Source of the DNA: a virus
Strand: one strand, 5' to 3'
Length of the DNA: 30,664 bases
Virus record (IMG/VR): IMGVR_UViG_3300028600_000372
Span: 1 to 30,664 of that record
Shown piece after piece: positions 1-19,006 of the stretch. How positions within the stretch are numbered: position 1 is the stretch's first letter; every line of letters starts with the position of its first letter. The notes below the pieces were generated by a model that was not told the origin of the DNA, ran no database searches, and saw nothing but the letters and a program-made list of their open reading frames with translations. The position numbers and the translations under genes are program-made.

Positions 1-981
1 AAAGTTATCCATGATTTTGTTAATCTGTGAGTAGTCTTTTCCTGGAACTGTATGCTTAAAGATGTATGGTGTATGGTACGTGTTGATAGCAACATTAAGA
101 TAATCTCTACTGTATAACACCAGTCCTACTTTTCCAATATCTACAAGGGAACGAATGTCACTCTTTCCGTAAAAGTCACTGAACAGATCATGGTTCTTTC
201 CCTTTTGGATGTAGATCATTCTGTTGGCATCAAACCGTGAGCCATTGGATGTAAGGCCAGTTACCTCAACTGCAATAAGTTCTGATGTTCCAAAATCCAC
301 AATGGGTCTTCTTAGTAGTTCTGGTCTGATCAATCGCAAAGCTTGTGGCATCTGATATTTTCCATCTTCGCCTCTCTGCTCTGGAAACATGCCAATTGCC
401 GTTCTTCCCTGCTCTCGTGCAAACAGGTATGCATCAAAAATTAAATCTTTAAGATCAAGTGTCTTGAAAAGATGGTCTACCCATTTCTTGATTTGTGTGG
501 GTGTCACAGGATCATCAAAGAAAGGAACCTCTATTGCAGTCTCCTGCCATTTCTGTAATTTTTCTGGATCCATATTCTCAGCATCTCGTGGAACAACTTC
601 TGTTGTGAATTTTCTTACAACAAGCTTTTGAATGATTATCTGGGATTTTTCTATCCAGGGGTTTTCCTCGTTTAGTATTCTTAGTAACTGGCGAAGCTCT
701 GCAGGATAAGGGTCAACTGATGGGAATATCTGAAAGTTTGCAAACGGGTCTAGTTTTTTGAGCCACTTTGTATTATTACTGGTTGGAAGACCTCTTGCAC
801 TTGATGGTCTTATCTGGCCGTCTTGCGCCCATGCAGGTGCTTGTGCAAACTTTACGGGTCCTGCCTTCCAAATTGAGTCATCAATGTCTAATTTGTACTC
901 AACATCTCTTACTTTGACTATGGAAATGCCTTCTATCTGATTGATGTTTTCATCGCTAGGTGTGGATTCTTTCTTGCTCAC
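1..981 (-). CDS. Portal protein, N-terminal 327 residues (cut by left edge)
   Basis: Open from a GTG at 981 to the window edge with no stop, so the C-terminal part lies outside. An in-frame TAA lies five codons upstream of the GTG, which makes GTG the first usable start. The N-terminal 60 residues look flexible. After them come a helical region and a stretch with DLFSDFYGKSDIRSLVDIGK (about residues 273-292), which I recognise as typical of portal proteins of archaeal and bacterial head-tailed viruses; the following TPYIFKHTVPGKDY fits too. The portal forms the dodecameric DNA channel at one capsid vertex and docks the terminase. The gene has its own promoter region at 982-1040. The assignment rests on motif memory, not on a search. 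Confidence 0.75.
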   Translation of the reverse strand, partial: MSKKESTPSDENINQIEGISIVKVRDVEYKLDIDDSIWKAGPVKFAQAPAWAQDGQIRPSSARGLPTSNNTKWLKKLDPFANFQIFPSVDPYPAELRQLLRILNEENPWIEKSQIIIQKLVVRKFTTEVVPRDAENMDPEKLQKWQETAIEVPFFDDPVTPTQIKKWVDHLFKTLDLKDLIFDAYLFAREQGRTAIGMFPEQRGEDGKYQMPQALRLIRPELLRRPIVDFGTSELIAVEVTGLTSNGSRFDANRMIYIQKGKNHDLFSDFYGKSDIRSLVDIGKVGLVLYSRDYLNVAINTYHTPYIFKHTVPGKDYSQINKIMDNF

Positions 982-2241: not shown

Positions 2242-2470
2242 TCTTTATTACTTTCCCTACAGTCACATACAAGTTTAATCCTCCGTTCTCAATATCGGTC
2301 AACCATTCCATATCCAAAATAATGAATCCGTTTCTATACGCTTTCATAGCTTGCCTTTCTTCTATTATTGGTTTTATATCGTGGATATTGTGAAACAATG
2401 CTTCTTCAGATATGTGATCAGCATTATACCTCTTTACAGATTTTATCTTAAATTCTATTGTTAATGACAT
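2234..2470 (-). CDS. Unknown protein, 78 aa; first gene of its operon
   Basis: Unrecognised alpha/beta protein with strands at both ends (SLTIEFKIKSV; GLNLYVTVGKVI). The ATG at 2470 is directly preceded by an ATTCTTAATAATT element, so the transcript is probably short-leadered. It overlaps the next gene by eight bases. Confidence 0.75.
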   Translation of the reverse strand: MSLTIEFKIKSVKRYNADHISEEALFHNIHDIKPIIEERQAMKAYRNGFIILDMEWLTDIENGGLNLYVTVGKVIKNE

Positions 2471-2471
2471 G

Positions 2472-2484
2472 ATTCTTAATAATT
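2472..2484 (-). promoter_or_regulatory. Partial TTCTTAATAA element before 2470 operon
   Basis: ATTCTTAATAATT, a degenerate copy of the TTTCTTAWTAAGAAA palindrome, in the 22-base gap between the terminase-nuclease paralogue and the ATG at 2470. Degenerate enough that chance in AT-rich DNA cannot be excluded. Confidence 0.35.
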
Positions 2485-2492
2485 TATAAGCA

Positions 2493-3236
2493 TTAAAATA
2501 TTTTCCTAGGCTGAAACAATCTGTTGCGAGTGCGTGGATTATTCAAGCTAGCTGCAGTCAGACCACCATAAGTCTCTGTTCCCAATATCTTTTCTATTAC
2601 GTCATCAAAGGACTGATCTGCAGTTTGTGGCTGCGTGGCTCCGTTAATTATTACTACAGGTGAATCTCCATGCTGCAAAGACATCCTACCAACAAAGCAA
2701 CAAATCATCAGTGCCTTTGTCAGACCATCTAACTCTTCGCCTGGTGCATAGTATGATACAGTTCCCTGCTCTGTGACGTGCTCTGTGAACATCTCCATCT
2801 GTTTGACTAAATCCTGCATGTCCTTTGTGCGTACCTTCTTTTCATCAATTGGAGGAAACTGTATTGAGTGATTTTGTTTTAGAGATAATGTAAGCTGCGT
2901 CATTTCTGTCATATCCATTACTTTGATTAGCTCAATATCTTCAGGGTCTTTGAGATTCTTTTGTGTGGTTATTGTCTGCACTTCAAACTTTAGTGCGTTT
3001 TCCACTGAGCGAATCAGATGCTGCCCAATTAACTGATCTGCAAATGTCATGTGCCATTTTACCTTATCAAAAATTTGCTTGACGTCATCAGGGATTTGGT
3101 TCATCTGTTCTCTTTTCCATTGCTTGGCTAGCCTGACATATGCCAGCTTCTTGTATGGATCAATTTCTATTCCAACCATACCAAACACTGTTCTTTGTTT
3201 TGTGTAGGATAGTGCAACGATTAGTTGGTTCTTCAT
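2493..3236 (-). CDS. Degenerate paralogue of the terminase nuclease, 247 aa
   Basis: Its first 70 residues align without gaps to the terminase nuclease at 3506..4057: FGMVGI matches FGVVGM, YVR..KQWKRE matches YVR..IEFKRE. The catalytic Asp10 of that protein is Ser10 here, Glu67 is Asp67, and the late Asp (HDD) corresponds to Asp170 in EELDGLTKAL. The RNase H-like fold is therefore probably kept while two-metal cleavage is lost or altered. About 65 extra C-terminal residues, rich in Gln, Thr and Asn, have no counterpart. The ATG overlaps the upstream stop as ATGA, so it is co-translated with the packaging genes. Possible roles are a regulatory terminase subunit, a DNA clamp or a head-completion protein; all are inference. 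Confidence 0.7.
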   Translation of the reverse strand: MKNQLIVALSYTKQRTVFGMVGIEIDPYKKLAYVRLAKQWKREQMNQIPDDVKQIFDKVKWHMTFADQLIGQHLIRSVENALKFEVQTITTQKNLKDPEDIELIKVMDMTEMTQLTLSLKQNHSIQFPPIDEKKVRTKDMQDLVKQMEMFTEHVTEQGTVSYYAPGEELDGLTKALMICCFVGRMSLQHGDSPVVIINGATQPQTADQSFDDVIEKILGTETYGGLTAASLNNPRTRNRLFQPRKIF

Positions 3237-3394
3237 TGTTTGGAAACCTTCACCAGTGCATCAGCCAATAATTCTAACCATCTATCGTAAGATTGTTTTG
3301 CCTCTAATAGATTCTTTTCAGCTTCTATAACATTATTTTTTGAAGTGTTAACACCTTCCTTTATTTGGTCTAGCAATGTGGCATTTTTACTCAT
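3233..3394 (-). CDS. Coiled-coil microprotein, 53 aa
   Basis: One long amphipathic helix (DQIKEGVNTSKNNVIEAEKN and on), so probably a small coiled-coil oligomer. I choose the ATG at 3394 because it overlaps the TGA of the preceding gene as ATGA; a longer version from an ATG at 3427 would overlap that gene by 37 bases. It lies between nuclease and nuclease paralogue, so a small terminase-like role is conceivable but unsupported. Confidence 0.7.
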   Translation of the reverse strand: MSKNATLLDQIKEGVNTSKNNVIEAEKNLLEAKQSYDRWLELLADALVKVSKQ

Positions 3395-3540
3395 GTTTTT
3401 TCCACTTCTGTCTTTTCGCAATGCCATTTGTTGTAGTATGGTTGACTGGTAACAACCATGTCTCCTGCAGGTAACTTGCCAATTTCATAAGCCATACGAT
3501 CAAGTTCATCTTTGCTGATCCCACCAAATTCTAATTGCAT
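3391..3540 (-). CDS. Unknown microprotein, 49 aa
   Basis: Reads MQLEFGGISKDELDRMAYEI and on. No known motif. The start at 3540 lies inside the 3' end of the nuclease gene (35-base overlap) and its TGA overlaps the next ATG. Support is the uninterrupted frame and the ATGA coupling. Confidence 0.6.
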   Translation of the reverse strand: MQLEFGGISKDELDRMAYEIGKLPAGDMVVTSQPYYNKWHCEKTEVEKT

Positions 3541-4057
3541 TACATCCTATTAGCTCGCACATAAATAAATCATCATGCCTTCCTCTCTGCCTCTTGTAAG
3601 ATACGTGGCCTGATGGTGAAGTTATCCCGACTATCTGATTTCTTTGGTTGATCAGCTCTGCGATGCCATCAGATTTCTTATCATGGTATTGTACAGTGTG
3701 TTTCTTGTATTCTGTCTTTAACCATTTTATCATGAATGGCTTGTCAACTACCCAGCCATCAGCGTTTGTCTCTTCGGTCAGTCCTGCAGATGTTGAGACG
3801 TATTTAATTGGAAGGTGTGAAAATGCCTTTGAAACATCCTCATAGTCAAAGTTCTTTTCTAGCATCATCAGGTGAAAGTTAATCTTTTTGTTCATTGATT
3901 CAAAATGATTTGCAACAGTAGAGTATTTTTCCCTCTTAAACTCAATTGCATGTCTGACGTATATTTTTCTTTCAGGCCAAGTTCCTTGCATTCCAACCAC
4001 ACCAAATGAATCTCCTGCCTTTGCAGGATCACCTATTAGCAGATTAAGACTTTTCAT
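3506..4057 (-). CDS. Terminase large subunit, nuclease part (split gene), 183 aa
   Basis: RNase H-like nuclease of a large terminase, encoded apart from its ATPase. The first strand carries LLIGDPA with catalytic Asp10, followed by the typical FGVVGM turn; MMLEKN supplies Glu67; RHDDLFMCELI supplies Asp162/163 at the start of the last helix. It would cut concatemeric DNA at the start and end of packaging. In most head-tailed viruses this domain is the C-terminal half of one protein with the ATPase; here the ATPase (4507..5571) ends in an acidic tail and two small genes lie between. The ATG at 4057 overlaps the preceding gene by 14 bases. Confidence 0.8.
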   Translation of the reverse strand: MKSLNLLIGDPAKAGDSFGVVGMQGTWPERKIYVRHAIEFKREKYSTVANHFESMNKKINFHLMMLEKNFDYEDVSKAFSHLPIKYVSTSAGLTEETNADGWVVDKPFMIKWLKTEYKKHTVQYHDKKSDGIAELINQRNQIVGITSPSGHVSYKRQRGRHDDLFMCELIGCNAIRIWWDQQR

Positions 4058-4187
4058 ATAATTTGATTGGTTCTAAATTGTGTGCATGGTTTAGATATTT
4101 GGTTAACAGTGCTTTCATTTCAGATTCGTTCATTGTTTGTATCACGGTCCGAAATTGGTTTATCGTCAGGTTTATTCCAGGGATCAT
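4044..4187 (-). CDS. Unknown microprotein, 47 aa
   Basis: Begins MIPGINLTINQFRTVIQTMN, mainly helical. ATG at 4187 overlaps the upstream TGA as ATGA and its TAA lies 14 bases inside the nuclease gene, so it is translationally coupled on both sides. No function visible; placed between the two terminase parts. Confidence 0.7.
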   Translation of the reverse strand: MIPGINLTINQFRTVIQTMNESEMKALLTKYLNHAHNLEPIKLYEKS

Positions 4188-4414
4188 GATTTTTCGATAT
4201 CCTCCATACTCATAGGTAATGCTGAGAGGATTCTGTTTGTATTTTTTGTGGTTATGATTATCTGTATCTCATCACCTGTATCTTTTACAATTTTTTCTAT
4301 TTCCTGCAGTCTATGATAGGTCATCCTTCTTTGCATATCAGAAAGTTTGTAATTGATACATTCCATGAGACAGTGAAGATACTCGGATTTTTGTGCAGCT
4401 AGGATTGTTTTCAT
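4184..4414 (-). CDS. Unknown helical protein, 76 aa, first gene of nuclease operon
   Basis: Mostly helical with a central strand (EIQIIITTK). No motif recognised. It opens the 4414-2493 operon, preceded by two TTTCTTATTAA elements. Size and position between terminase ATPase and nuclease would suit a small terminase subunit, but no DNA-binding motif is seen and this remains a guess. Confidence 0.75.
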   Translation of the reverse strand: MKTILAAQKSEYLHCLMECINYKLSDMQRRMTYHRLQEIEKIVKDTGDEIQIIITTKNTNRILSALPMSMEDIEKS

Positions 4415-4432
4415 GAAAATGATTAGAGTGTA

Positions 4433-4446
4433 TTTTCTTATTAAGA
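4433..4446 (-). promoter_or_regulatory. TTTTCTTATTAAGA element (proximal copy)
   Basis: First of two copies, separated by six bases, in the gap between the terminase ATPase and the 4414 operon. It starts 19 bases upstream of the ATG at 4414. TTAATAAG, read toward the gene, could itself serve as TATA box. Confidence 0.55.
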
Positions 4447-4452
4447 CTAATA

Positions 4453-4468
4453 TTTTCTTATTAATTTA
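4453..4468 (-). promoter_or_regulatory. TTTTCTTATTAATTTA element (distal copy)
   Basis: Second copy, 39 bases upstream of the ATG at 4414. The tandem arrangement with a 20-base period puts both copies on nearly the same helix face, which would suit cooperative binding by a dimeric regulator. Confidence 0.5.
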
Positions 4469-4486
4469 TCCTAGTCTTTTTGTTAT

Positions 4487-4513
4487 AACTTTGTGGAGAA
4501 TCTCCACTATGTT
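4487..4513. repeat. 27-base repeat with palindromic core, copy 1
   Basis: An exact 27-base match to 19805-19831. The core GTGGAGAATCTCCAC (4493-4507) is an inverted repeat with seven-base arms around one base; it is flanked by AACTTT and TATGTT in both copies. This copy spans the terminase ATPase stop codon (TAG, 4507-4509). A protein-binding site (ParB-like or packaging) is possible; as a terminator it would be unusual because no T-run follows on the gene strand. Confidence 0.75.
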
Positions 4514-5571
4514 TCTGTTTTTTTCTCATGCCAAAATATTCCATCTGGATCTTTTTCCTCATCATAATCGTCATTATCGTCATTATCGTCATCTGTTAAC
4601 CATTCAGGTCTTCCTTGCTGGTCTTCTACAGATACGGTTCCAAAGATTGAATCTCTTCCTGCCTTGTATTGGCATAGATATTCTTGTTCTGGATCTTCTG
4701 CAGACGAAGCAATCATTTCATTTATCTCATCTGTAGTGTAGAGATTTCCCTCAGCTTCCCAGATGTCATAGACAAAGAATACAAAGTCACTTTCGTTATG
4801 ATCCATGTCTATCTTGTAAAACATCTTGAGTGGTCCCTTTGGTGTGGATACCAAAAACAGGTCCGCACCGTTTGTTCTTACAATTGGGAGAATTGAATTG
4901 AATACTGGCGTATCATCAACTGTTCTCCATTTGGCTGCCTCATCCATGAATATGCACTTGTATTTTGTGTCACCAGTCAGTGCCTCTTCTGATGCAGAGT
5001 ATGCCCAGACTACAGTGTTATTGACAAGCTTGATGCATATGCCTTCCTTGGTGGACTTCATCCATTGTTCTACTACTGCAGGAATTGACTTGAGCAGTAC
5101 TGCAAATCTTCTAAGATCCTTTCTGGCAAGCGTTCCAGTTGTAGCTGCAATGATTGCAACGTTTGCCCCTGCATATCTTGAGAAACAAAGATGTAAAATT
5201 ATGCGCAATACTATTTCAGTAAATCCCATCTGTCTACCTTTCTTGATGTGCATCTTCAGGGCCTTTCTCATCTGGGCTATTGCATCACCAAATGATTTTC
5301 TGCCATTGAAGACTTTGTTTGCAAGATCCACCTGGTATGGTGTGAGTGGCATCTCTTCGTTTGTAGCTGGATGCCTTGGCAATCCTACGATGTGCGTTGT
5401 GCAGCATGTCGCAGTATGTTTGTAATCAGGATTCCTCTCATGTAGTGTATCGTCATCACACCAGAAAGGCAACGTTGCTAACCATTCACATAATTGAAGA
5501 GGGGTGGCCTGTTGATGATCTGTTTGGTCTTTTTGTTCTAGCTCCTCTAGACGAGAATCAAGTGATATCAT
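4507..5571 (-). CDS. Terminase large subunit, ATPase part (split gene), 354 aa
   Basis: Packaging motor ATPase. The Walker A variant of large terminases is KKGRQMGFTE (residues 110-119), Walker B KCIFMDEAAKW (D210, E211), coupling motif VSTPKG (241-246), and QEYLCQYKAG (296-305) is the usual end of the ATPase domain. The protein then stops after an acidic low-complexity tail (DDDNDDNDDYDEE), where a normal large terminase of 500-600 residues would continue into the nuclease. The tail could contact the separate nuclease subunit or the portal. It follows the helicase gene by 13 bases in one operon. ATG at 5571. The Cys pair at 56-57 has no obvious partner. Confidence 0.9.
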   Translation of the reverse strand: MISLDSRLEELEQKDQTDHQQATPLQLCEWLATLPFWCDDDTLHERNPDYKHTATCCTTHIVGLPRHPATNEEMPLTPYQVDLANKVFNGRKSFGDAIAQMRKALKMHIKKGRQMGFTEIVLRIILHLCFSRYAGANVAIIAATTGTLARKDLRRFAVLLKSIPAVVEQWMKSTKEGICIKLVNNTVVWAYSASEEALTGDTKYKCIFMDEAAKWRTVDDTPVFNSILPIVRTNGADLFLVSTPKGPLKMFYKIDMDHNESDFVFFVYDIWEAEGNLYTTDEINEMIASSAEDPEQEYLCQYKAGRDSIFGTVSVEDQQGRPEWLTDDDNDDNDDYDEEKDPDGIFWHEKKTET

Positions 5572-5584
5572 TGTAATTCAGGTA

Positions 5585-7498
5585 TTACTTGGATAGTCCA
5601 ATCAATGACAGATCTGCTTTCCACTTTCCTTTACTGACAGTGATTAGTTTCATGTCTCGTAATTTTTTAAAACCAACACTTGTCATTGATGCAGCTTGAG
5701 AATATCCTAGCAAGATGGCAAGACCTTCCTTTGTAAATTCCTGGCCCTCTCTTTGATATAGCAGTCTAACCAGTTCTCTTTCCTTGTCCCTTAGAGTTAT
5801 CACTTTTTTCTGAATCCCTGGAAGTGATAGAATTGGATGTGATTTCTCAAAGTCATTTAGCTGGATATTCTGTTTTGGTTCTGTATTTGATGCAGATGCA
5901 ACCTTTCTTTTTACAGTCTTAATTTTTGCTGGTTTGTCCTTCATCTGTTGGATCACTTTCTCTGAGATTCCTTCCCTGTGCAATACAATCTTGAATCCCT
6001 TATCCATGATTCCAAAGAGTCTCTTGTGATCCTTTTGATATTCCAAGACGGTCATGACAATATGCCCTTCACCGTCAGTTCCTTGACCATGTAACAATCT
6101 TGTAAATCTCTGAAGCTCTTGTCTTCTGGAACCATGCAGCCAGGAAATCTCTATTACTCTCTTGATGTCAGGCAATGAAACTCCCTCATCTCCAACCCTT
6201 GATACTATTGTAACTAAATTCTCGTGAATCTTATCCAACCTTTGTTTTGTATCACCGTAAACATGAGGTATGTTAAATTTCTTAGAGTATTGTTTTCCCA
6301 TCTCGATTGAATCTGCAAAGACAATTGTCTTCATTGGTTCCTGTAATAGCTCACCTACCTGTTTTAGTCTGTCAGAATCATTCTTTACAATCCATACGTG
6401 CAACGGAGGATTTGCAATTATTTTCATCTGTTTGAAATATTCCCAGTTCATTCCTGTTGGTCTACCAGTAAGTGCAAAGATGAATTCCTCTCGGTTATCC
6501 TCTCTTTGTGGAGTGGCTGACAGTCCTATGGTATAATCAGTGGGAACCATTGCAAGTTTTGAGAATTCATTTGATGGTAAATGGTGTACCTCATCAATTA
6601 TCTTTCCCTTGTATTTTTTGTCCTTCTTGACTCCTGCATAATATGTCATCACGTCATATTCATGAGGCTCCAAATCAGTGTAAAGCTCGATTCGTTCCTT
6701 CCACTGTTCTATCAGTAACCTTGATGGTACCACAACTAACCAGGGTCCACGTACATGCGTCATTGCCCACAGTCCAAGGAATGTCTTTCCCGTTGATGGT
6801 GGCAAAAATGCGCCAATGTTTGAATACTTTAGAAACTCATCGTAGCAATCTTTCTGGTAATCCCTTTGATCAAAGTCGCATCTCCTGTTAACCAGGTCTT
6901 CCTTTGCCACAGGTTTTGGAACAAATGGGAGTATTCCGTCCTTGATTAATGCAGCTAGTAATTCAAAATGTCTTTGCTTGTCTACTAATAGCCTACCGTC
7001 CTTTTCTTTTCGTTTAATGAAATTTCCATATTTCTCCCTGGCCTTTTTCAAATCATTACCAACCAAGTGATCGCCTTCAAGATAGATGTCAAGTGGATCA
7101 GGGAATTTCAGCTCGTCCTTTAATGCCTGTGGAATTCCACCAAGCCAGTCCACGTATTTGTTTACAAGAAAGATGTTGTAAGATGGAGTGACCTTTTCGA
7201 GCCACCCAAACTGGACATCTACAAATTTAGGAATAGAAAGATAGTATTCTCCCTCGTGTTTTCCAGGTAATATTACGTATGGATATTTGAAGAAATTGTC
7301 CAGTTCATCCTTGTCAATCTTTGCAGTCTTGATTGACATTGCATATTTTGTTACCTCATTTTGTGCCCAATCTCTGACCTCTTCTGAGCCTTCAGCTAGT
7401 TTTGTGAATTCCTGTAATGAATGGGTTGCAGTGTCTAGTGTACGGTTTAACTGCTCAATTTTTAGAGAAATGGATAGATCTTTAACTTCCTGAGTCAA
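5585..7498 (-). CDS. SF2 DNA helicase of XPB/UvsW type, 637 aa
   Basis: ATP-dependent DNA helicase. The Q-like entry FDQRDYQKDCYDEF (209-222) leads to Walker A PPSTGKT (233-239), motif Ia VVVPSRLLIEQW (256-267), motif II DEVHH (302-306), motif III IGLSATPQRED (324-334), motif V IVSRVGDEGVSLPD (431-444) and motif VI RRQELQRFTRLLHGQG (458-473). The N-terminal 200 residues are unassigned; a winged-helix-like C-terminus (about 570-637) could bind DNA. XPB/Rad25-like helicases of phages remodel replication forks and recombination intermediates. Translation appears to start at TTG 7498, which overlaps the upstream TGA as TTGA; no ATG occurs before residue 53. It shares an operon with the terminase ATPase, so it may serve late replication or packaging. 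Confidence 0.88.
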   Translation of the reverse strand: MTQEVKDLSISLKIEQLNRTLDTATHSLQEFTKLAEGSEEVRDWAQNEVTKYAMSIKTAKIDKDELDNFFKYPYVILPGKHEGEYYLSIPKFVDVQFGWLEKVTPSYNIFLVNKYVDWLGGIPQALKDELKFPDPLDIYLEGDHLVGNDLKKAREKYGNFIKRKEKDGRLLVDKQRHFELLAALIKDGILPFVPKPVAKEDLVNRRCDFDQRDYQKDCYDEFLKYSNIGAFLPPSTGKTFLGLWAMTHVRGPWLVVVPSRLLIEQWKERIELYTDLEPHEYDVMTYYAGVKKDKKYKGKIIDEVHHLPSNEFSKLAMVPTDYTIGLSATPQREDNREEFIFALTGRPTGMNWEYFKQMKIIANPPLHVWIVKNDSDRLKQVGELLQEPMKTIVFADSIEMGKQYSKKFNIPHVYGDTKQRLDKIHENLVTIVSRVGDEGVSLPDIKRVIEISWLHGSRRQELQRFTRLLHGQGTDGEGHIVMTVLEYQKDHKRLFGIMDKGFKIVLHREGISEKVIQQMKDKPAKIKTVKRKVASASNTEPKQNIQLNDFEKSHPILSLPGIQKKVITLRDKERELVRLLYQREGQEFTKEGLAILLGYSQAASMTSVGFKKLRDMKLITVSKGKWKADLSLIGLSK

Positions 7499-8274: not shown

Positions 8275-11200
8275 TCATGGTGCAGCCCATACACCATCAG
8301 CTCTTAAGAAATTGGTAGTTCCTCCACCAGATGCAGGCACTAATCCTTTGAGTGCGCTTGTAAAGAGATTAAGTAATGCCGTTGCTCTTGCCAATGTCAA
8401 TGATTCTGGAACTCCTGTTCCCGCTGTATCTCTTCCAATGAATGAATTAGTTCCAATGTTTGCCATTTTTGCTAATGTAACTTGTGCATCAGTTATGTTT
8501 GCAGTATTTACTGCATTATTGCCAAGTTCAGTTGTTGTAATTGCATTGGTAGCGATTTGTGCAGCTGTAATTGTATCATTTGATATGTTTGCAGCAGTAA
8601 TTGTAGTAGCTGCAATATCGCCACCTGTAACGGAACCAGCTACAATTTGAGATCCTCCGACTGAGTTTGTAGCCATTTGATTAATACCAATAGTTCCATT
8701 TGCAATGTTGGCGTTTGTTATTGTAAGGGCTGCAATTTTTGCACCTGTAACTGCAGCTGTTGCAATTTTCGTACCTGTAACTGCATTGGTTGCTAATACG
8801 TCTGCATCTACAATTCCATTTCCCAAGTTTGCATTTGTAATAGTTCCTGCAGCAATCTTTGCACCTGTAACTGCAGCTGTTGCTATCTTTGTACCTGTAA
8901 CTGCATTGGTTGCTAGTTTGTCTGCGGTTACAGCTTGAGTCCCAAGAATTGCAGACGTTACAGTCAAGAGTGCCATCTTTGAACCAGTAACTGTTGCGTT
9001 TGCTAATTTTACACCTGTAATTGTGTTACCTGCAATTTTGTCTGTGGTTACAGCATTGGTTGCAAGCTTTGCACCCGATACTGCCAAGTCTATAAGTTCG
9101 CCTGTACCAACAGCGTTGTTAGCGATTTGAGATGCTCCGACTGAGTTGGCAGCTAGTTGTGTAGCTGTGATAACTCCGTTTCCGATCTTTGCTGCGGTAA
9201 CTGCAAGATCTACTAATTCACCTGTACCAACAGCAGCGTTACCAATTTGAGATATCCCTACAGAGTTGGCAGCTAGTTGAGCAGATGTAATAGTTCCTGC
9301 AGCAATCTTTGCTGCGGTAACTGCCAAAGCTGCTATGTTTACGCCCTCAACTGCATTATTGGCTAGTTCAGATGTTGTAACTGCATTGGTAGCGATTTCA
9401 GTGGTTCCAACAGCTCCTGCATCAATATTCCAGACTGTGCCTCCTGATGAAACGGTTATGTCACCTTTATCTCCATCTGAGACTCCTGCAGCTGCTGCTC
9501 CGAAATCAACATTTGCACCGTTGGCTCTTCCAAAGAATTGATTTGTAGTTGAGTTATACCATATGGATCCATCTGTTAATACTGAAGGGGTTCCAGCTAC
9601 ATCTCCAAGTGAAATTCCTGGATTGGTTGCACTATGAGGAAATGTTTGTGTCAATCCTGCAGTGTAGGTATTGGTTTGATCTGTTTGCACTACAGTTGCA
9701 GGTAATGTCAAAGTGACAACACCTGCATTATCCATTGTAGCATCTCCAGACATTGTAACTGCAGTTGCAACACCAGATGCATTTCCTAACCAAAAGTTAG
9801 CTGATGCAATATTTGGCAGAGATGCATATCTTGAATTGATGAAAACATTCAAAACTCCGTTTGTTGGATTAGCCCTTCCAATTCTGCCAAGAACCTGAAT
9901 GCTTGCAGTTCCAGTTGGCCTAACATTTGTAAGTGTGTTGCCAGTTGTTCCAGATGTAGAAAGATAGATTGTTTGATTTGTAGAAAATGCACTTGTATCA
10001 AAATCTTCTAGATTTCCAGTCTCTACTATGAGACCAGTTTGACCATTTGAGATATCCTCTTCAACTATTCCTAGTGCTGGGGTTGGGTCATTGGCATCAG
10101 CTAATACTACATTTGCCCTGCCAAGACCAACATTCCATGTGTCTTCCCTTACAGCATCGCCTTTTGCCAGAACAGCCCCTGAAGTATTCTGAACTTGAAT
10201 GTGAACTTGGTTTGCGTCTATCTTATTTGTGATATCAGTCGCATTAAATCCAACTACATTACCTTGTATGAAATCATGTTCACCGTCACTACTCAGTTTG
10301 TATCTTATTGTAGGATTCACTGAACCAGTTGGTGTTAGGAAAATTGAATATCTTCCTGGAGTTGAAGTTGCAGAAAAATCGTCATCAGCTGCAATCTGTA
10401 CTGCCCCACCTCTACGCCATGCAGCAACAACATCTCCATCCCATCCATATCCTGTTAAATCAAATAATGTATCATCAAGAGCCGTTACAAGTGGAGAGGC
10501 AATTGTTCCGTTTGCACTTCTTCCTATGAAATTTGCACCATTTCCACCGCCATCATATGTCCTTACATCAACATCGGCAGTTAGTCCTTCAGCCACTACA
10601 GTTACAGTTTCTTGTAAAGTTGGGTTTCCTGCAAATACTAGAGGGCCACCGCCAGTTTCATCATCAATAATTCCTGCGAGTTGTGCAGAAGTTGTATTTG
10701 CAAAGAATGAAAGGTTATCCGTGTTTCTGGCAATTGATGCATCTAAAGTTACAACTCCTGTGCTTGACATGGTTGCATCACCGCTTACAGTTTGTGGCAA
10801 TCCATTGGTTCCAGCGTCACCGATTAGAATTTGTCCGTCTGGAATTTCAACTCCTAGCTGTACAGCTGTAGAACTTGCAAGTGTTATTTTTATTCCCTGA
10901 GTTACAGTCATAGTTTTGAATTGCATCAGTTTTGTAACTGCATCAACAGAATCATACCAATTGATTATTCCAGGACCAGATGCTATATTTTCTCCACCAG
11001 CTATTCCATAGGGTAAAAACACCAAGTCAGTTGTATCAATAACAATAGGAGCTGGTGTAGTTAGCTGCCATGATGTATCTTTATTCACTAAGCCTTGTGT
11101 GATGACAATGACTGCCCCAGCTAAGAAATCAACACTGGTTGCATTGAAATCTCCTGGTCTTGTCCAAGCTCCTGCACCTTGAGTAATCCAAACTCCGTTT

Positions 11201-12834: not shown

Positions 12835-12971
12835 TATTTCTTACCATCCAATTGCTTACAAGCTGTTGCGGTTCTTTGATGAATGGGTACATTCTGAAAA
12901 TATCTTTTACATCGTGGGCATTGAGTTTTAGCATATTTGCCAGGTTTTACAAGTCCAGTTAATCTAGGCAT
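12834..12971 (-). CDS. C2HC zinc-finger microprotein, 45 aa
   Basis: Basic N-terminus (MPRLTGLVKPGKYAKTQ), then CPRC (18-21), H31 and C38: a CCHC spacing of a small DNA-binding finger. Coupled by TGATG to the upstream gene and by TAATG to the next. Confidence 0.75.
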   Translation of the reverse strand: MPRLTGLVKPGKYAKTQCPRCKRYFQNVPIHQRTATACKQLDGKK

Positions 12972-13087
12972 CAGGTTACATCCTCGAATTCTAAAATTAT
13001 TTCTCCAAGTCTGTCATATTCGTCCCATTCTCCAACAAAATTGGATTGTCTTTTTTTGAGACTGGCTATTTTGTCTTGGAGGTTCAT
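12971..13087 (-). CDS. Unknown microprotein, 38 aa
   Basis: MNLQDKIASLKKRQSNFVGE and on, an N-terminal basic helix and an acidic end. No motif. Its ATG overlaps the preceding TAA by one base; its TGA overlaps the next ATG. Confidence 0.6.
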   Translation of the reverse strand: MNLQDKIASLKKRQSNFVGEWDEYDRLGEIILEFEDVT

Positions 13088-13389
13088 TAGTTCACTCCCA
13101 TTTCTCTAACAATCATCTCAGATAGTCCGTCTGCATAGATGTCTTCATGTCTGTCTGAGCCATTGAAAATTACTGTGTATGTGTCAGATCCATTTTCATA
13201 TTGAATCAATACGTTTGAAATTTTCTTTGGATTTCTTGGGACTTTGAGATATAATGCGGTTTCACTGAAAATTTGTGGTTTTACTCCAGTGTATGCAAAG
13301 AATGGAAATCCATTTACACGAGAAGCTTTAAGTTGTCTAAAAATCTCTTCTGCTACTTCGTTGTTTTGTGTTGTAATTGTTTTATTCAT
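13087..13389 (-). CDS. Unknown alpha/beta protein, 100 aa
   Basis: Not recognised. Helix (NEVAEEIFRQLKASRV) followed by strands (ALYLKVPRNPKKISNVLIQY; TYTVIFNGSDR). I take the ATG at 13389, not the TTG five codons upstream, because a TATA-like TTAATATAT lies 22-31 bases before it and would give a leaderless transcript. First gene of a six-gene operon of tiny proteins, divergent from 13474..13596. Confidence 0.75.
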   Translation of the reverse strand: MNKTITTQNNEVAEEIFRQLKASRVNGFPFFAYTGVKPQIFSETALYLKVPRNPKKISNVLIQYENGSDTYTVIFNGSDRHEDIYADGLSEMIVREMGVN

Positions 13390-13473
13390 ACGTATACTGT
13401 ACAATACACCATATATTAATTATACGTATAATGTATAGTATGTCATTAAATACTTTATATTAGATACCATGTT
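13387..13473. promoter_or_regulatory. Divergent promoter with ATACGTAT palindromes
   Basis: Separates the minus-strand gene starting at 13389 from the plus-strand gene at 13474. ATTATACGTATAAT (13419-13432) is a perfect 14-base palindrome, and ATACGTAT recurs at 13388-13395 over the start codon. TATA-like boxes lie at about 13410-13420 (minus) and 13453-13462 (plus). A third ATACGTAT is at 14389-14396. A repressor acting on both directions is likely. Confidence 0.6.
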
Positions 13474-13596
13474 ATGAAATGTGTGAGTAAAAGAATAGTG
13501 ATAACGCCTTGCTGTGAGCATGAGCAGGCCACCCAGAAGAAAAAGAAAGAGATAATATATTGTACACGATGTCATAATCCGTTTGTTGAAAATTAA
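13474..13596 (+). CDS. Zinc-ribbon microprotein on the opposite strand, 40 aa
   Basis: Short plus-strand gene within a minus-strand region. CC..H near residues 13-16 and CTRCH at 30-34 give four Cys plus His for one zinc, with a run of Lys between (QKKKKEI). The tail-to-tail neighbour ends nine bases away. Position beside a palindromic divergent promoter would suit a regulator, which is inference. Confidence 0.6.
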   Translation: MKCVSKRIVITPCCEHEQATQKKKKEIIYCTRCHNPFVEN

Positions 13597-13604
13597 TTTT
13601 TACC

Positions 13605-13832
13605 TTATGTTTCCTTGCACAATATTTCTTCTATTTCGTCAAACAGTTCCCTGGCATGGAAATCGCTTCCATTATGGGTCTTGATTAGTTCTTTAATCGT
13701 GTGAATATCTTTGACACACCAAGGACAGATACATTCAATCACTGCTGCTTTTCCACGTGTAATTATGCCCTTCAGATACCAATCATCCAAACTGATTGCT
13801 TCAGTTTGACAGATTAAACATGAATCAGTCAC
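13605..13832 (-). CDS. Zinc-finger protein, 75 aa
   Basis: CLIC (residues 5-8) pairs with CPWC (36-39), about 27 residues apart, a treble-clef-like layout reminiscent of HNH-type folds, but the HNH catalytic His pattern is not evident. Starts with GTG at 13832, directly after the TAA of the preceding gene. C-terminal half is helical and acidic. Confidence 0.75.
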   Translation of the reverse strand: MTDSCLICQTEAISLDDWYLKGIITRGKAAVIECICPWCVKDIHTIKELIKTHNGSDFHARELFDEIEEILCKET

Positions 13833-13931
13833 TTACTTTCCTGATCTTTCATGAAAGTTATAACAACACTTGCATTCTCTTTCTCTGCACTCCGAATTAA
13901 GAATATGCTCACAGATTCCACAATCACACAT
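13833..13931 (-). CDS. Cys-rich microprotein, 32 aa
   Basis: Seven Cys in 32 residues: CDCGIC, C15, C20, then KCCYNFHER. Could hold two zinc ions, as in metallothionein-like or knuckle peptides. Its TAA is followed without gap by the GTG of the next gene. Confidence 0.6.
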   Translation of the reverse strand: MCDCGICEHILNSECRERECKCCYNFHERSGK

Positions 13932-13934
13932 TTT

Positions 13935-14099
13935 TTACGTGTCTCCAGTTTTGTTTAAGAGCTGAATTATTGTCTCTTGGTTGGAAATAATCTGTTGACT
14001 AGAATCCAGTAATACCCATTGATGTATTGTCAATACAAAAAACAATAGCCCAAACATTATTCCTGTCTGTATAATTATGAGTCCAGAGCTAGAAGTCAT
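13935..14099 (-). CDS. Single-pass membrane microprotein, 54 aa
   Basis: One hydrophobic helix (GLIIIQTGIMFGLLFFVLTI, residues 6-25) and a short polar C-terminus. It could be a spanin-, holin- or envelope-type peptide; topology is unknown. Two bases after the TAA of 14102..14356 and three before the next ATG. Confidence 0.7.
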   Translation of the reverse strand: MTSSSGLIIIQTGIMFGLLFFVLTIHQWVLLDSSQQIISNQETIIQLLNKTGDT

Positions 14100-14101
14100 G
14101 G

Positions 14102-14356
14102 TTAGTTTTTGAGTCCAAGATCTGGTAGATAATCACGTCTGAGGTATTCTTTACCTTGATCCAATCTAATGTCTACCTCAATCATACTGATCATTCTTTC
14201 TATTTTCCATAGTTTTTCCTCCATATATTCAGGAGAATAGAATTTGTCTTTGATCATAAATCCCTCTTTTGGGAGTCTGTTGTTTTCATTCATTGCCCCA
14301 GTGATATTACATCGCATGGTTCTCATCCAGCATTCCAGGTGTTCCTGTGTTATCAT
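14102..14356 (-). CDS. Unknown helical protein, 84 aa
   Basis: Two Cys only, helical C-terminus (YMEEKLWKIERMISMIEVDI). Not recognised. Its ATG is formed by the end of a perfect TTTCTTATTAAGAAA palindrome, and a TATA-like TTTATAATATA lies about 35-46 bases upstream. Confidence 0.75.
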   Translation of the reverse strand: MITQEHLECWMRTMRCNITGAMNENNRLPKEGFMIKDKFYSPEYMEEKLWKIERMISMIEVDIRLDQGKEYLRRDYLPDLGLKN

Positions 14357-14371
14357 TTCTTATTAAGAAAT
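14355..14371. promoter_or_regulatory. Perfect ATTTCTTATTAAGAAAT palindrome at a start codon
   Basis: Seventeen-base perfect palindrome. The terminal A of the core is the A of the start codon of 14102..14356, the same placement as at 29443-29457. With the TATA-like box upstream, the palindrome would cover the transcription start, so it looks like an operator. Confidence 0.65.
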
Positions 14372-14386
14372 ATTATCATATTAAAG

Positions 14387-14464
14387 TCATACGTATATTA
14401 TAAAGCAGCTCAGGGCTATTTCATTTTGTGTTTTCTCCATCGTGTTTCCTTGGACAGGGAACAT
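14387..14464 (-). CDS. Possible 25-aa peptide
   Basis: ATG at 14464, six bases after the preceding TGA, opens 25 codons ending in a hydrophobic SCFIIYV. The 3' end runs into the TATA-like region of the next operon. Weak support; it may be an untranslated leader. Confidence 0.25.
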   Translation of the reverse strand: MFPVQGNTMEKTQNEIALSCFIIYV

Positions 14465-14469
14465 TACAA

Positions 14470-14559
14470 TCAATTCAGGGAGATTTCATACTCGCCTGTT
14501 AAATTGTCAGACATTTCGAGACTGTGGATCCCATTGAAATGCTCTAGCTTTTTCATCAT
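14470..14559 (-). CDS. Possible 29-aa microprotein
   Basis: Starts MM at 14559, 15 bases after the 68-residue zinc gene. No motif. Listed because it continues the operon and fills a gap otherwise without a gene. Confidence 0.4.
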   Translation of the reverse strand: MMKKLEHFNGIHSLEMSDNLTGEYEISLN

Positions 14560-14574
14560 CGCTGCTGGAATAAT

Positions 14575-14781
14575 CTAATGTCTAAAAACTGTAATTCGTA
14601 GTTTAGATTTTCTGTCTACTGGTTTTGTTCTCATTCTTCCACCACAGCAAGGACACCAAAGCCCTTCCCATTTTACATGTCTTTCGCAGTTTCCACACCA
14701 TCTGTTCTCAGGATAATATGACCCATTTCTGGTTCGATGGGCTTTGTACATAGACCTGCATTTTGACACACACCAATTCAT
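14575..14781 (-). CDS. Zinc-finger protein, 68 aa
   Basis: Cys pairs: C4/C8, CGNC (29-32) and CPCC (43-46), followed by GGRMRTKP and a basic tail. The last two pairs make a zinc ribbon with a Trp-rich loop. I choose the ATG at 14781 because it overlaps the upstream TGA (ATGA); the longer reading from 14841 would overlap the nuclease-like gene by 64 bases. Confidence 0.75.
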   Translation of the reverse strand: MNWCVSKCRSMYKAHRTRNGSYYPENRWCGNCERHVKWEGLWCPCCGGRMRTKPVDRKSKLRITVFRH

Positions 14782-15173
14782 ATTCTTATCTTCGCCTTGT
14801 AAACTGGGTCCAGGACTTGATAAAAGGATTTGTAGTTCCATTGTTCAAAAAAGAGATTTGGCGCATCTCGTTCATCAATGTTGATTACTATTACACCGTT
14901 TTCTTCCATGTCTCTTTGCTGTTCTGCATCCTTTGTCGATGTCTTGTCCCCTGTATGATGCTTGTCCTGCACTCGGATTGCATGGAGTTTTTCCTTGTCA
15001 AACATTCCAATATCAATAGATGCCTTTTTGTAGATCTCGTTGTAGAGACTGTAACATTCTTCTGAGACAAAATCACTAATTGATTGCTGTGTCCAAAACA
15101 ATGCATTTGGAAATACTATCTTTAGAATTCTCAGTGTTGTTCTTTCCCCACGTCCTATGAATTGCGCACTCAT
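14778..15173 (-). CDS. Possible PD-(D/E)XK-type nuclease (QxK variant), 131 aa
   Basis: ASIDIGMFDKEKLHAIRVQD with K71 gives D54...Q69-D-K71, the arrangement of a restriction-type nuclease core in which Gln replaces Glu. A strand-turn-strand (VIVINID) follows at 94-100, as in small resolvase-like folds. If active it would cut or trim DNA, but the family is not certain. ATGA overlaps on both sides. Confidence 0.5.
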   Translation of the reverse strand: MSAQFIGRGERTTLRILKIVFPNALFWTQQSISDFVSEECYSLYNEIYKKASIDIGMFDKEKLHAIRVQDKHHTGDKTSTKDAEQQRDMEENGVIVINIDERDAPNLFFEQWNYKSFYQVLDPVYKAKIRI

Positions 15174-15508
15174 TGAAAGTATCCTTTTCCTTCAAACAGT
15201 TGCAGTCTGCTCTTGTCATAAATTTCGTAAATGTCATCGTAATCGGTAACTCCTTCTATTGTTTTTAACAGATCCAGGGCTTTTTTCCATGCAATGTTTC
15301 TTTCTGGAGCTGTGCATTTTGCAGAGCATTTCTCCACATGAGGATATTCAAAGCCAGGTGAGTTTAGCTTGAACAGTACCTCCTGAATTAGATCATAGTT
15401 AAACGGGATTGTTTCCAGGGCTTCATCCATTTTATGTAATATCTCCATGCATGCCTTGTCATCGGCATGATTTGGTTTGTAATTTGGATTAAGGATTGGT
15501 TTTCTCAT
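15170..15508 (-). CDS. Unknown helical protein, 112 aa
   Basis: Helical, with CSAKC in the middle. No family recognised. It overlaps the possible nuclease by four bases (ATGA), so a partner role is conceivable. Confidence 0.75.
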   Translation of the reverse strand: MRKPILNPNYKPNHADDKACMEILHKMDEALETIPFNYDLIQEVLFKLNSPGFEYPHVEKCSAKCTAPERNIAWKKALDLLKTIEGVTDYDDIYEIYDKSRLQLFEGKGYFQ

Positions 15509-15513
15509 TTTAG

Positions 15514-15768
15514 CTATTTTTTAGCTTTCTCAAAAATAACTTTATATTTTTCATTTCTCATGTTTAGTTGTTTGATGTGTTCCTGGCATCTCTTGAATTT
15601 TTGATTATTTACAGTAATTATGGTTGCTGATTTTCCACACATAGAACATTGCACTGTCTTGCACTGTGTTGGAAGTCTTATTTTCTTCATGTATTTTTTC
15701 TGGTTTTTTCTTTTCTCGGTTGGCCTGTCATCAGCATATGCCTTTTTTGGCATTGGATACCAACTCAT
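15514..15768 (-). CDS. Basic zinc-finger protein, 84 aa
   Basis: Strongly basic N-terminus (RPTEKRKNQKKYMKKIR), then C36, C41 and C44 with C61 and H64 about 17 residues later (QCSMCGK...FKRCQEH). Charge and fingers point to nucleic-acid binding. Confidence 0.75.
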   Translation of the reverse strand: MSWYPMPKKAYADDRPTEKRKNQKKYMKKIRLPTQCKTVQCSMCGKSATIITVNNQKFKRCQEHIKQLNMRNEKYKVIFEKAKK

Positions 15769-15938
15769 TGGTCAAAACACCATTTACAGTCAGGAGGATG
15801 ATTTTTGTACAGTTTGATTTGGTCCTTTACCTTTTCTTGATTTTTATGTAAAAATTTTATGATTCTTCTGAATCCAGTGTGTGTGATTATGGTAGTTTGA
15901 AATTTCAAACCATTGTAGGAAGTGTAAGTTTCAGGCAT
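15765..15938 (-). CDS. Small basic protein, 57 aa
   Basis: Basic helix (FRRIIKFLHKNQEKVKDQIK) and a C-terminal CKWC. The ATG at 15938 lies eight bases after the preceding stop; a TTG at 15968 would add ten residues inside the previous gene. One CxxC only, so zinc binding would need a dimer. Confidence 0.65.
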   Translation of the reverse strand: MPETYTSYNGLKFQTTIITHTGFRRIIKFLHKNQEKVKDQIKLYKNHPPDCKWCFDQ

Positions 15939-15946
15939 CGTGTAAG

Positions 15947-16183
15947 TCAAGGGATATATCCACCACAATTTTCATAATCCCTAACAAACCTATTGTATTG
16001 TTTCCATTCAAGAACTTGACTAAATGTAATTCCGTTAGGTTGTAGTTTTCTTTCCATTTGTAGAATCTTTTGATTTGTGTCGCTCCAATATTCTTCATCA
16101 TCTTCTTTTGTGGTGCTCCAAAATTGTTTATCTTGTTGTGGCATTTTAATTAAAATACATCCAGTTTTGTCTGGTCTCTGCAT
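15947..16183 (-). CDS. Unknown acidic protein, 78 aa
   Basis: Many Trp, Tyr, Gln and acidic residues, no motif. The ATG at 16183 overlaps the preceding zinc-finger gene by 34 bases; a second ATG at 16144 would start five bases after that gene's TAA and give 65 residues. Neither has a clear ribosome-binding site. Confidence 0.65.
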   Translation of the reverse strand: MQRPDKTGCILIKMPQQDKQFWSTTKEDDEEYWSDTNQKILQMERKLQPNGITFSQVLEWKQYNRFVRDYENCGGYIP

Positions 16184-16290
16184 TGCTTTGCATGCATTTC
16201 TTGCTGGTATGCATCTAGATTATTGAGATCCTTTCCGCAAAGATTGCACTTGGAATCTTTTAGAGTCCCAGGATATTGTGATTTTGACAC
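16150..16290 (-). CDS. C2HC zinc-finger microprotein, 46 aa
   Basis: CNLC at 15-18 followed by H33 and C37 (EMHAKQC), a single C2HC finger like the UBZ type in spacing. Starts with GTG at 16290, seven bases after the preceding TGA. Confidence 0.65.
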   Translation of the reverse strand: MSKSQYPGTLKDSKCNLCGKDLNNLDAYQQEMHAKQCRDQTKLDVF

Positions 16291-16297
16291 GGGTCTA

Positions 16298-16462
16298 TCA
16301 TTCTTTACTCTTGGTGATAAGAGCTAATTCGTGGATTGCATGCCAGGAATCACAATCAACACATTTTGTAAATATCCGACTGTCAGGACTAATAGTGTAA
16401 TTTTCAGGGTTTTTCATCATAGCTTCACCAATAATCTTTATTTCTTCATTGGAAAAACTCAT
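16298..16462 (-). CDS. Zinc-site microprotein, 54 aa
   Basis: Helical N-terminus, then CVDCDSWHAIH (34-44), which can hold one metal by two Cys and two His. TGATG overlap with the gene before. Confidence 0.65.
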   Translation of the reverse strand: MSFSNEEIKIIGEAMMKNPENYTISPDSRIFTKCVDCDSWHAIHELALITKSKE

Positions 16463-16632
16463 CAGTATTCAGAACTCCTTTTTCTGATCTGTTCATCCAT
16501 TAGTTTTTGATTAAAAACTTCAAGCTTCTTAATCTTATCGGTTATAATTTCAAATCTTTTTTCAAACGAGTTATTAGAGTCTACCAATTCGTTTACTACT
16601 TCAGGTTCGAGTACTCTTTTTTTAATTATCAT
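16462..16632 (-). CDS. Coiled-coil microprotein, 56 aa
   Basis: Basic start (MIIKKRVLEPEVV), then one long amphipathic helix with charged ends. ATGA overlap with the upstream gene, TGATG with the downstream one. Confidence 0.65.
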   Translation of the reverse strand: MIIKKRVLEPEVVNELVDSNNSFEKRFEIITDKIKKLEVFNQKLMDEQIRKRSSEY

Positions 16633-16883
16633 TTTTTCTTTGGTTCTCTAATTAACAAGATAGTGTTTTTGTTTGGAAACCACCAAGATATAATTTGATG
16701 AACCTCAAAGTTATGTTTTTTTAAAATTGGCAGTATTGGATTTAAACTCACGGACCCATCTTTATCATACTTGATATGAATTCTTTCCATGTCCGTATCA
16801 CATACTCCAAGCATTACAGATATTCCCAATTTACGATTTGTCATCTTTTTTGAAATTAACTGTTTAACTTGTCTAGATTTCAT
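16629..16883 (-). CDS. Unknown basic protein, 84 aa, first gene of its operon
   Basis: Basic alpha/beta protein (N-terminus MKSRQVKQLISKKMTNRK). Not recognised. Preceded by 65 bases of gene-free AT-rich DNA that probably holds its promoter. Confidence 0.75.
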   Translation of the reverse strand: MKSRQVKQLISKKMTNRKLGISVMLGVCDTDMERIHIKYDKDGSVSLNPILPILKKHNFEVHQIISWWFPNKNTILLIREPKKK

Positions 16884-16948
16884 TTTATTTTATTATTATT
16901 ATATTATTGTAATACATACAACATACATACATACATACAACATGCAGT
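16884..16948. promoter_or_regulatory. AT-rich promoter gap with CATA microsatellite
   Basis: Contains a run of ATT/ATTATT next to the start at 16883 and several CATA units in tandem at about 16913-16937. TATAATAATAATAAAA, read on the gene strand, could be the TATA box. Variable repeat number would change promoter spacing. Confidence 0.45.
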
Positions 16949-18457: not shown

Positions 18458-19006
18458 TCATTTTGCGGTCTCAGAAAATTCTCTAAGATATTCTTCATCC
18501 AATACCACGTATGGATCACCGCTTCCTTTGGTGTTGGGCATGGAAATGAAATTAACATTATCAATACAGGATCTTATCTCATCCTTGAAGAATTTATGAA
18601 AAGGATCATGATATTTTTCAGGTACATAGATTGTTTGTATTTGCATAATTTGTGCAGGAATGTTGAATTCTGGAAATGAGTAAATCACATTTACGCCCAT
18701 GCGACACAACTGTTGATTAAAAAACAATTGTACAGCTTCTGCAGTATTGGCTCTCTGTTTTGCCTCGATAAGATATGAGGATTTACCCTTAGTTATGAAA
18801 AAATCTGGCCTGGTCCTTACAAACAGTGAGGACGTGTTATAATATTTTTGCAAGTCAAGTATTTGATTTGCATTAAACTGCTTCTCATATCCGTAATCAA
18901 TTACCATGTCATTATCAGAGAGACCAAACCTTTCTCTGATCTCTTGCTCAGTTACTGTGAAACTTTCAGGTTTTATTGTTTGCAATTGCAAGCAGCCTCC
19001 GTGCAT
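18458..19006 (-). CDS. PD-(D/E)XK nuclease, about 182 aa
   Basis: RTRPDFFITKGKSSYLIEAK gives P67-D68 ... E81-A-K83, the canonical metal-binding core of restriction-type nucleases, followed by a helix (AEAVQLFFNQQL) and strand (VNVIYSF). Start uncertain: ATG at 19006 overlaps the methyltransferase gene by 41 bases; a TTG at 18985 has GGAGG ten bases upstream and would cut the overlap. Directly follows the ParB-methyltransferase, so the two could form a modification-restriction pair or a DNA-processing pair. Confidence 0.7.
   Translation of the reverse strand: MHGGCLQLQTIKPESFTVTEQEIRERFGLSDNDMVIDYGYEKQFNANQILDLQKYYNTSSLFVRTRPDFFITKGKSSYLIEAKQRANTAEAVQLFFNQQLCRMGVNVIYSFPEFNIPAQIMQIQTIYVPEKYHDPFHKFFKDEIRSCIDNVNFISMPNTKGSGDPYVVLDEEYLREFSETAK

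Follow-up and report, generated by a model that had tools for sequence, protein, structure and literature searches.

A large terminase apparently spread over three genes, one of them for a nuclease-fold paralogue, in tailed viruses of Nitrososphaerota

The large terminase (TerL), the enzyme that pumps DNA into a virus shell and cuts it, has been described as a single chain whose C-terminal nuclease domain is universal across the Caudovirales (PMC7824862). This domain, which cuts DNA, is also held to grip it or to dock to the portal, and the models that have been put forward are said to differ on the share it takes in pumping as against cutting (PMC7617512). In phage phi29, the C-terminal domain of gp16 is presented as a TerL nuclease that has become vestigial and retains DNA binding (PMC7672431). 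We consider here the large terminase encoded in the IMG/VR record IMGVR_UViG_3300028600_000372, a linear record of 30,664 bases that was analysed at its full length and that we refer to as the window. The original prediction, made from the letters of the window, was that of a terminase in two parts, with an ATPase gene and a nuclease gene. These two are indeed separate, and a third part had been overlooked: Nuc2 (2493-3236), a paralogue of the nuclease Nuc1 that has lost the first catalytic aspartate. We are highly confident of this three-gene anatomy. Taken together with a division of labour between the gene products, it makes a working account that we regard as reasonably probable, while the division of labour considered by itself, with Nuc1 cutting and Nuc2 serving the motor, is put forward tentatively.

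The ATPase subunit (354 residues) is encoded at 4507-5571, on the minus strand. It matches PHROG_2, the family of terminase large subunits (E 4.4e-19), and Pfam Terminase_6N (E 2.1e-9, 37.8 bits for a cut-off of 22), and a profile built from 12 of its relatives aligns to the ATPase domain of T4 gp17 (E 1.2e-7). The additional strand, conserved glutamate (ASCE) ATPase domain of TerL proteins can be followed through its Walker A, Walker B and motif III. The Walker B pair D210-E211 and the motif residue T243 do not vary among the 12 sequences compared. Walker A, K-G-R-Q-M-G-F-T, is deviant, as the usual P-loop lysine is a phenylalanine (F117) in all 12; the lysine that opens the motif, K111, is just as invariant, and we take this to be the deviant type with its lysine at the start, as in phage lambda gpA. 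The Walker and coupling motifs which had been anticipated are therefore present and conserved, with this peculiarity. The gene stops before any nuclease domain, and the protein ends in an acidic tail, 48 residues past the start of the conserved motif DSIFG. This tail, too, had been noticed beforehand, and it recurs in 14 of 14 lineages, with nine to 14 aspartates or glutamates among the last 30 residues.

Nuc1, the intact nuclease (3506-4057, minus strand, 183 residues), begins where it had been said to begin, its N-terminus lying on the first catalytic strand. Four acidic residues, D10, E67, D162 and D163, are the same in all 12 sequences, and the RNase H-type catalytic carboxylates of TerL proteins are complete in Nuc1 and incomplete in Nuc2. 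When the 12 Nuc1 members were searched against families, matches were weak and scattered, two being to the terminase family PHROG_38 (best E 0.024) and one to PHROG_5713 (E 0.057); among sequences of the PDB nothing came out beyond an irrelevant match (E 0.51). We identify Nuc1 as a TerL homologue because it is the paralogue of Nuc2, because Nuc2 has an informative structural model and because Nuc1 carries the motifs just described.

Nuc2 is encoded on the minus strand and has 247 residues. Compared with hhalign, the Nuc1 and Nuc2 profiles align with a probability of 98.3 (E 2.1e-14), and each of them, run on the open reading frames (ORFs) of 19 loci, picks up the members of the other family, with cross-matches from E 1.2e-16 to 8.2e-7; the two genes derive from a duplication. 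Taken singly, a Nuc2 sequence falls in no family of Pfam or PHROGs, and single Nuc1 or Nuc2 sequences gave no match in a tblastn search of 50,697 phage records. The AlphaFold model of Nuc2 has a mean predicted local distance difference test score (pLDDT) of 73.1, which rises to 86-94 across residues 1-90. With Foldseek, terminases make up 20 of the 23 matches at E<=0.001, and with VIA-align the first 37 of 50 ranks are TerL without exception, the best being D6E TerL (Z 13.5, root-mean-square deviation (rmsd) 3.4, 153 residues aligned). The TerL-type nuclease fold is therefore found in Nuc2 by its structural matches, and in Nuc1 by homology to Nuc2. When all were aligned jointly, the first catalytic aspartate was seen in 15 of 15 Nuc1 proteins, in the four nucleases of other split terminases and in the nine nuclease domains of fused ones; none of the 15 Nuc2 proteins has it. 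Serine, threonine or alanine occupies the position in the 13 aligned Nuc2 sequences, the count of 15 including also L058 and L100. Nuc2 is not a decaying copy: the ratio of non-synonymous to synonymous substitution rates (dN/dS) is 0.043-0.096 in seven of eight pairs, the eighth being saturated, and this ratio is lower in Nuc2 than in Nuc1 in six of seven comparisons, the exception being the window against L006, where dS is near saturation. The gene is under strong purifying selection.

The arrangement is conserved across the whole clade. Scans for viral contigs with ATPase, Nuc1 and Nuc2 gave 13 contigs, one of which (L002) is nearly identical to the window, which makes 13 distinct viruses when the window is counted. 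In all 13, the three are separate genes in the same order, and the nuclease domain that would be C-terminal in the same chain in a usual TerL is on ORFs of its own. The same three genes are carried by a contig from a Nitrosopumilus metagenome-assembled genome (MAG), LFLC01000054.1 (L034/L058), and a contig of 1.46 Mb from the same family (L056) holds two ATPase copies of the window's clade, 6.8 kb apart (8532-9569 and 15368-16405), with Nuc1 fragments nearby, the remnants of proviruses. Because these two contigs carry such genes, we can tie the clade to the Nitrosopumilaceae and their near relatives: its members are tailed viruses of Nitrososphaerota, ammonia-oxidising archaea.

It is tempting to propose how a terminase of this kind would work. 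The three proteins would come together at the portal in a single motor, in which Nuc2, freed from cutting, would fill the permanent function of the C-terminal domain, be it a grip on DNA or docking to the portal, to TerS or to the capsid. Nuc1 would be recruited or activated only for cutting, at the start and at the end of packaging, and the acidic tail of the ATPase is a likely docking peptide for Nuc1, for Nuc2 or for both. By analogy with phi29, a vestigial state and an active state of the nuclease may both exist here, as separate proteins beside one ATPase. A stronger version, where a dead Nuc2 is a permanent part of a motor made of different subunits and a live Nuc1 an exchangeable cutter, is a conjecture that we advance with considerable reserve.

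A more prosaic explanation would be that an assembly error, a frameshift, an intein or readthrough conceals a single chain. Two irregularities would fit: the ATPase of L006 is in two pieces, and Nuc1 of L031 is an open frame without an ATG, GTG or TTG start. Yet separate ORFs recur in all 13 viruses, L004 and L014 have overlaps of 4 nucleotides (nt) at the junction, the halves are kept apart by other small ORFs in seven of 14 lineages, and the second assembly, L002 (a record of 46,091 bases), is 99.93% identical to the window across 13,571 bases, all of which makes a concealed chain hardly credible. A second full-length terminase, which the original prediction had also envisaged as a danger to its claim, did not turn up in the window, the 46-kb L002 or 12 related records (these 14 linear records may be fragments): the family profile finds one terminase ATPase in each, that of L006 in its two pieces, and PHROG_2 gives at most one match per record, with 12 of the 14 matching. 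The prediction went further and saw two operons, transcribed separately around a promoter with two palindromes, so that translocation and cutting could be timed apart. The palindromes are there. One inverted repeat spans the ATPase stop codon (4487-4513; arms of 13 nt, 85% complementary, 1 nt apart), a second one lies at 4443-4449/4472-4478 and a 14-nt direct repeat is also present. These repeats stand before the two small ORFs that had rightly been placed between the ATPase and nuclease genes, one of 76 residues (4184-4414, minus strand), with no family match and unlike the inserts of other lineages, and one of 47 residues (4044-4187, minus strand), which overlaps the former by 4 nt and the start of Nuc1 by 14 nt. 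In the window and six other lineages, ATPase and Nuc1 are 449-1143 nt apart with small ORFs in the interval, which would also suit separate control. The promoter itself found no support, as a scan of 2400-5700 gave eight candidates against 10.5 expected from shuffles, with models made for sigma-70 and not for archaeal promoters; a terminator scan, itself unsuited to archaea, gave no excess. Separate operons fared no better: the terminase genes are all co-oriented, and ATPase and Nuc1 overlap or lie within 46 nt of each other in the other seven of the 14 lineages, as measured between homologous starts (five of which had to be set by homology, the ORFs there having no standard start codon). Because the ORFs of the long gaps, all of them small, are mostly unrelated between lineages, some being common to L012, L015 and L016 only, we understand the spacing in the window as a local insertion state which is no evidence for separate control, and we consider such control improbable.

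The other two alternatives accept the split and question the place given to Nuc2. This might be an ordinary split, where something such as a homing endonuclease gene broke the linker of a normal TerL and the halves re-associate into something like a fused TerL, with Nuc2 a spare copy drifting towards some other function. The break does lie in the linker, ahead of the first nuclease strand, in all cases, and ORFs of HNH type, a possible cause of the split, are met at its junctions: between Nuc1 and Nuc2 in L025 (5595-5999; Pfam HNH, E 2.8e-4, at the cut-off), and between ATPase and Nuc1 in L013 (5504-6004; HNH-like by eye, with no Pfam match). A gene which all 13 viruses retain, and which is under tighter constraint than Nuc1 in six of seven pairs, does not look like a spare copy, however, and we find this account rather unlikely. 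Alternatively, Nuc2 could be the working C-terminal partner throughout, active with an altered metal site, while Nuc1 would be an accessory nuclease, acting for instance on branched DNA. It is true that the second and third acids of Nuc2 (D67 and D170) are kept in 13 of 13 sequences and that its TerL fold is clearer than that of Nuc1; yet the first-strand aspartate, which is possessed by each of the 28 nuclease domains aligned from Nuc1 and from other split or fused terminases, is found in no Nuc2, and we see little chance that Nuc2 is the active partner. The division of labour between Nuc1 and Nuc2 that we prefer has to face several observations that weigh against it. With two of its three acids, Nuc2 could have a residual or altered activity, and it could also be a head-completion or TerS-like factor rather than a part of the motor. 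The fold of Nuc1, as far as models tell, seems evident only through its paralogue: its own AlphaFold model is poor (pLDDT 56.3), the structural comparison places terminases at ranks 1-19 with low scores (best Z 5.0, rmsd 5.2, 142 residues aligned), and a search of families with Nuc1 alone gave nothing in Pfam, weak PHROGs of unknown function and no convincing terminase family. The tryptophan seen near the end of the ATPase tail, in tails read by eye, is present in 13 of 14 lineages and missing from L031. Finally, one clade of split terminases (L050/L096) has apparently a single nuclease and does without Nuc2, a situation that also speaks for an ordinary split.

This latter clade came from a wider survey of Nitrososphaerota, of the kind that the original prediction had proposed, where both split and fused forms occur. 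Matches to the ATPase profile came from 13 genomes out of 250 in the family and 33 out of 400 in the class, and a tree was made of 40 ATPases, 12 from the clade of the window and 28 others with a long enough frame and surroundings that were read. Among these 28, 11 are fused (456-570 residues, including those of Nvie-Pro1 and of the haloviral HF1), six are split (L050, L055, L058, L090, L092, L096), six are ATPase-only as far as seen and five are ATPase-only in a fixed chromosomal place. The separate nuclease of L050 is recognized by Pfam Terminase_6C (E 2.2e-8, above the cut-off) and its gene overlaps the ATPase gene by 4 nt; that of L096 adjoins its ATPase. Less clean are the splits of L055, where the nuclease overlaps the ATPase ORF, and of L090, where it is frameshifted; the nuclease of L092 was spotted by eye, a Pfam search giving no terminase family. 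We left L099 out of the counts, as it has a Nuc1-like gene and no intact ATPase that the profile could find. Of 30 records found with relatives of the L050 nuclease, four annotated phage ones were examined, and these are single chains of about 417-595 residues by gene length. Beside the ATPase-only loci L051, L052, L053, L056, L057 and L089, no intact nuclease was found with profiles, which miss distant nucleases. Judging from these sequences, split terminases are recurrent in viruses of this class, beside fused ones; on the ATPase tree, read without a known root, the split may have arisen once or several times.

Within the clade of the window, motor and nuclease genes may not always tell the same history. 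Tests were made on 13 lineages, without L006 and its broken ATPase. Nuc1 (P-value of the approximately unbiased test, p-AU, 0.009) and Nuc2 (0.016) both reject the ATPase clade L014+L015+L029 (support 99/97); Nuc1 also rejects L003+L025 (p-AU 0.014), a group that Nuc2 recovers, though unsupported. Nuc1 does not reject L004+L005 (p-AU 0.19), which Nuc2 recovers, and the group made of the window, L003, L025 and L031 is rejected by neither (p-AU 0.082 with Nuc1, 0.346 with Nuc2). Because the clades were picked after earlier trees had been viewed, exchange between motor and nuclease genes is only suggestive.

Some of the ATPase-only genes deserve mention in their own right. Those of five Nitrososphaeria loci (268-289 residues; L093 4234-5049, L094 4174-4989, L095 4378-5184, L097 3957-4826, L098 317-1186) follow an NADPH-FMN-reductase-like gene in five of five cases and precede a PP2C-phosphatase-like gene in four, L098 ending before that point; no other virus gene was seen alongside them and they are nested in a clade of fused TerL. 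They have the look of a terminase motor that the host has captured and uses. Other loci pair an ATPase-only TerL with a gene that is TerS-like by position and size (L051 5699-7031, L052 6429-7780, L053 7739-9359, L089 3930-5190), some of them beside ordinary host genes, and no nuclease was found with these pairs.

On the minus strand of the window, the genes come in the order helicase, ATPase, the two small ORFs, Nuc1, an ORF of 64 residues (3233-3427, minus strand, overlapping the start of Nuc2 by 4 nt), Nuc2, further small ORFs and lastly a probable portal gene. Of the latter only the start is present (1-981, minus strand); its counterpart in L002 encodes a probable portal protein of 552 residues (Pfam Phage_portal, E 3.6e-6, under the cut-off of that family). 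The helicase gene, XPB/RAD25-like (5585-7498), lies immediately upstream of the ATPase gene, and in the relatives viewed other than L002 the genes at that place differ from it. At 18966-20207 the window encodes a DNA methyltransferase with a fused ParB-like domain, and in L003 a gene resembling this fusion stands just upstream of the terminase genes. A scan of the window for tRNA genes found none. Near the terminase genes of the Nitrosopumilus MAG contig, L034 has an ORF of 1335 residues (12913-16920) with a start like that of a secretion signal, repeats and no clear Pfam family, which by eye resembles an S-layer protein.

In the literature searched, which omits most subscription papers and was viewed mainly by titles and the openings of abstracts, we found no report of a split TerL that has a nuclease-like paralogue as a further subunit. 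Each part is of an already known kind, and what appears to be new, going by the genes themselves, is the three-gene form with its dead paralogue. An intact cutter and a dead copy that are separate proteins make a natural separation-of-function set, each of which may be purified, removed or mutated alone. Surveys that seek a full-length TerL will misjudge archaeal viruses with a split terminase. If a dead Nuc2 does belong to the motor and Nuc1 is exchangeable, viruses could exchange the nuclease gene, or control it, independently of the motor, and what the C-terminal domain contributes to translocation, disputed in single-chain systems, could be tested without its part in cutting.

Set against known systems, the locus resembles T4 gp17, HK97, P74-26/G20c and D6E TerL in that its ATPase domain is homologous to that of T4 gp17, in that Nuc1 has the acids and in that the fold of Nuc2 matches the nuclease domains of D6E, SPP1, T4 and P74-26. 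Those terminases are single chains, whereas the window has one gene for the ATPase, one for the nuclease and another for the second nuclease-fold protein. The same contrast holds with the TerL of Nvie-Pro1 (a Nitrososphaera viennensis provirus, FR725450), the best annotated match of the window ATPase in the phage collection (E 2e-6), which is a single chain of 456 residues with ATPase and nuclease. NitKor-E1 of Nitrosopumilus koreensis, described as carrying TerS and TerL and no further head genes, and comparable in this to the L051-L053 loci, is called enigmatic in function (PMC6563490). With phi29 gp16 the likeness is that of a TerL-nuclease-fold domain which persists without its catalytic residues. 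The account given of phi29 is that of a vestigial domain fused to the ATPase, with no active nuclease needed and with a packaging RNA (pRNA) (PMC7672431); in the window, a linear record that may be a fragment, Rfam gave no match at E<=1. Where phi29 keeps its vestigial nuclease fused to the ATPase, the window encodes Nuc2 as a gene of its own, beside an intact nuclease.

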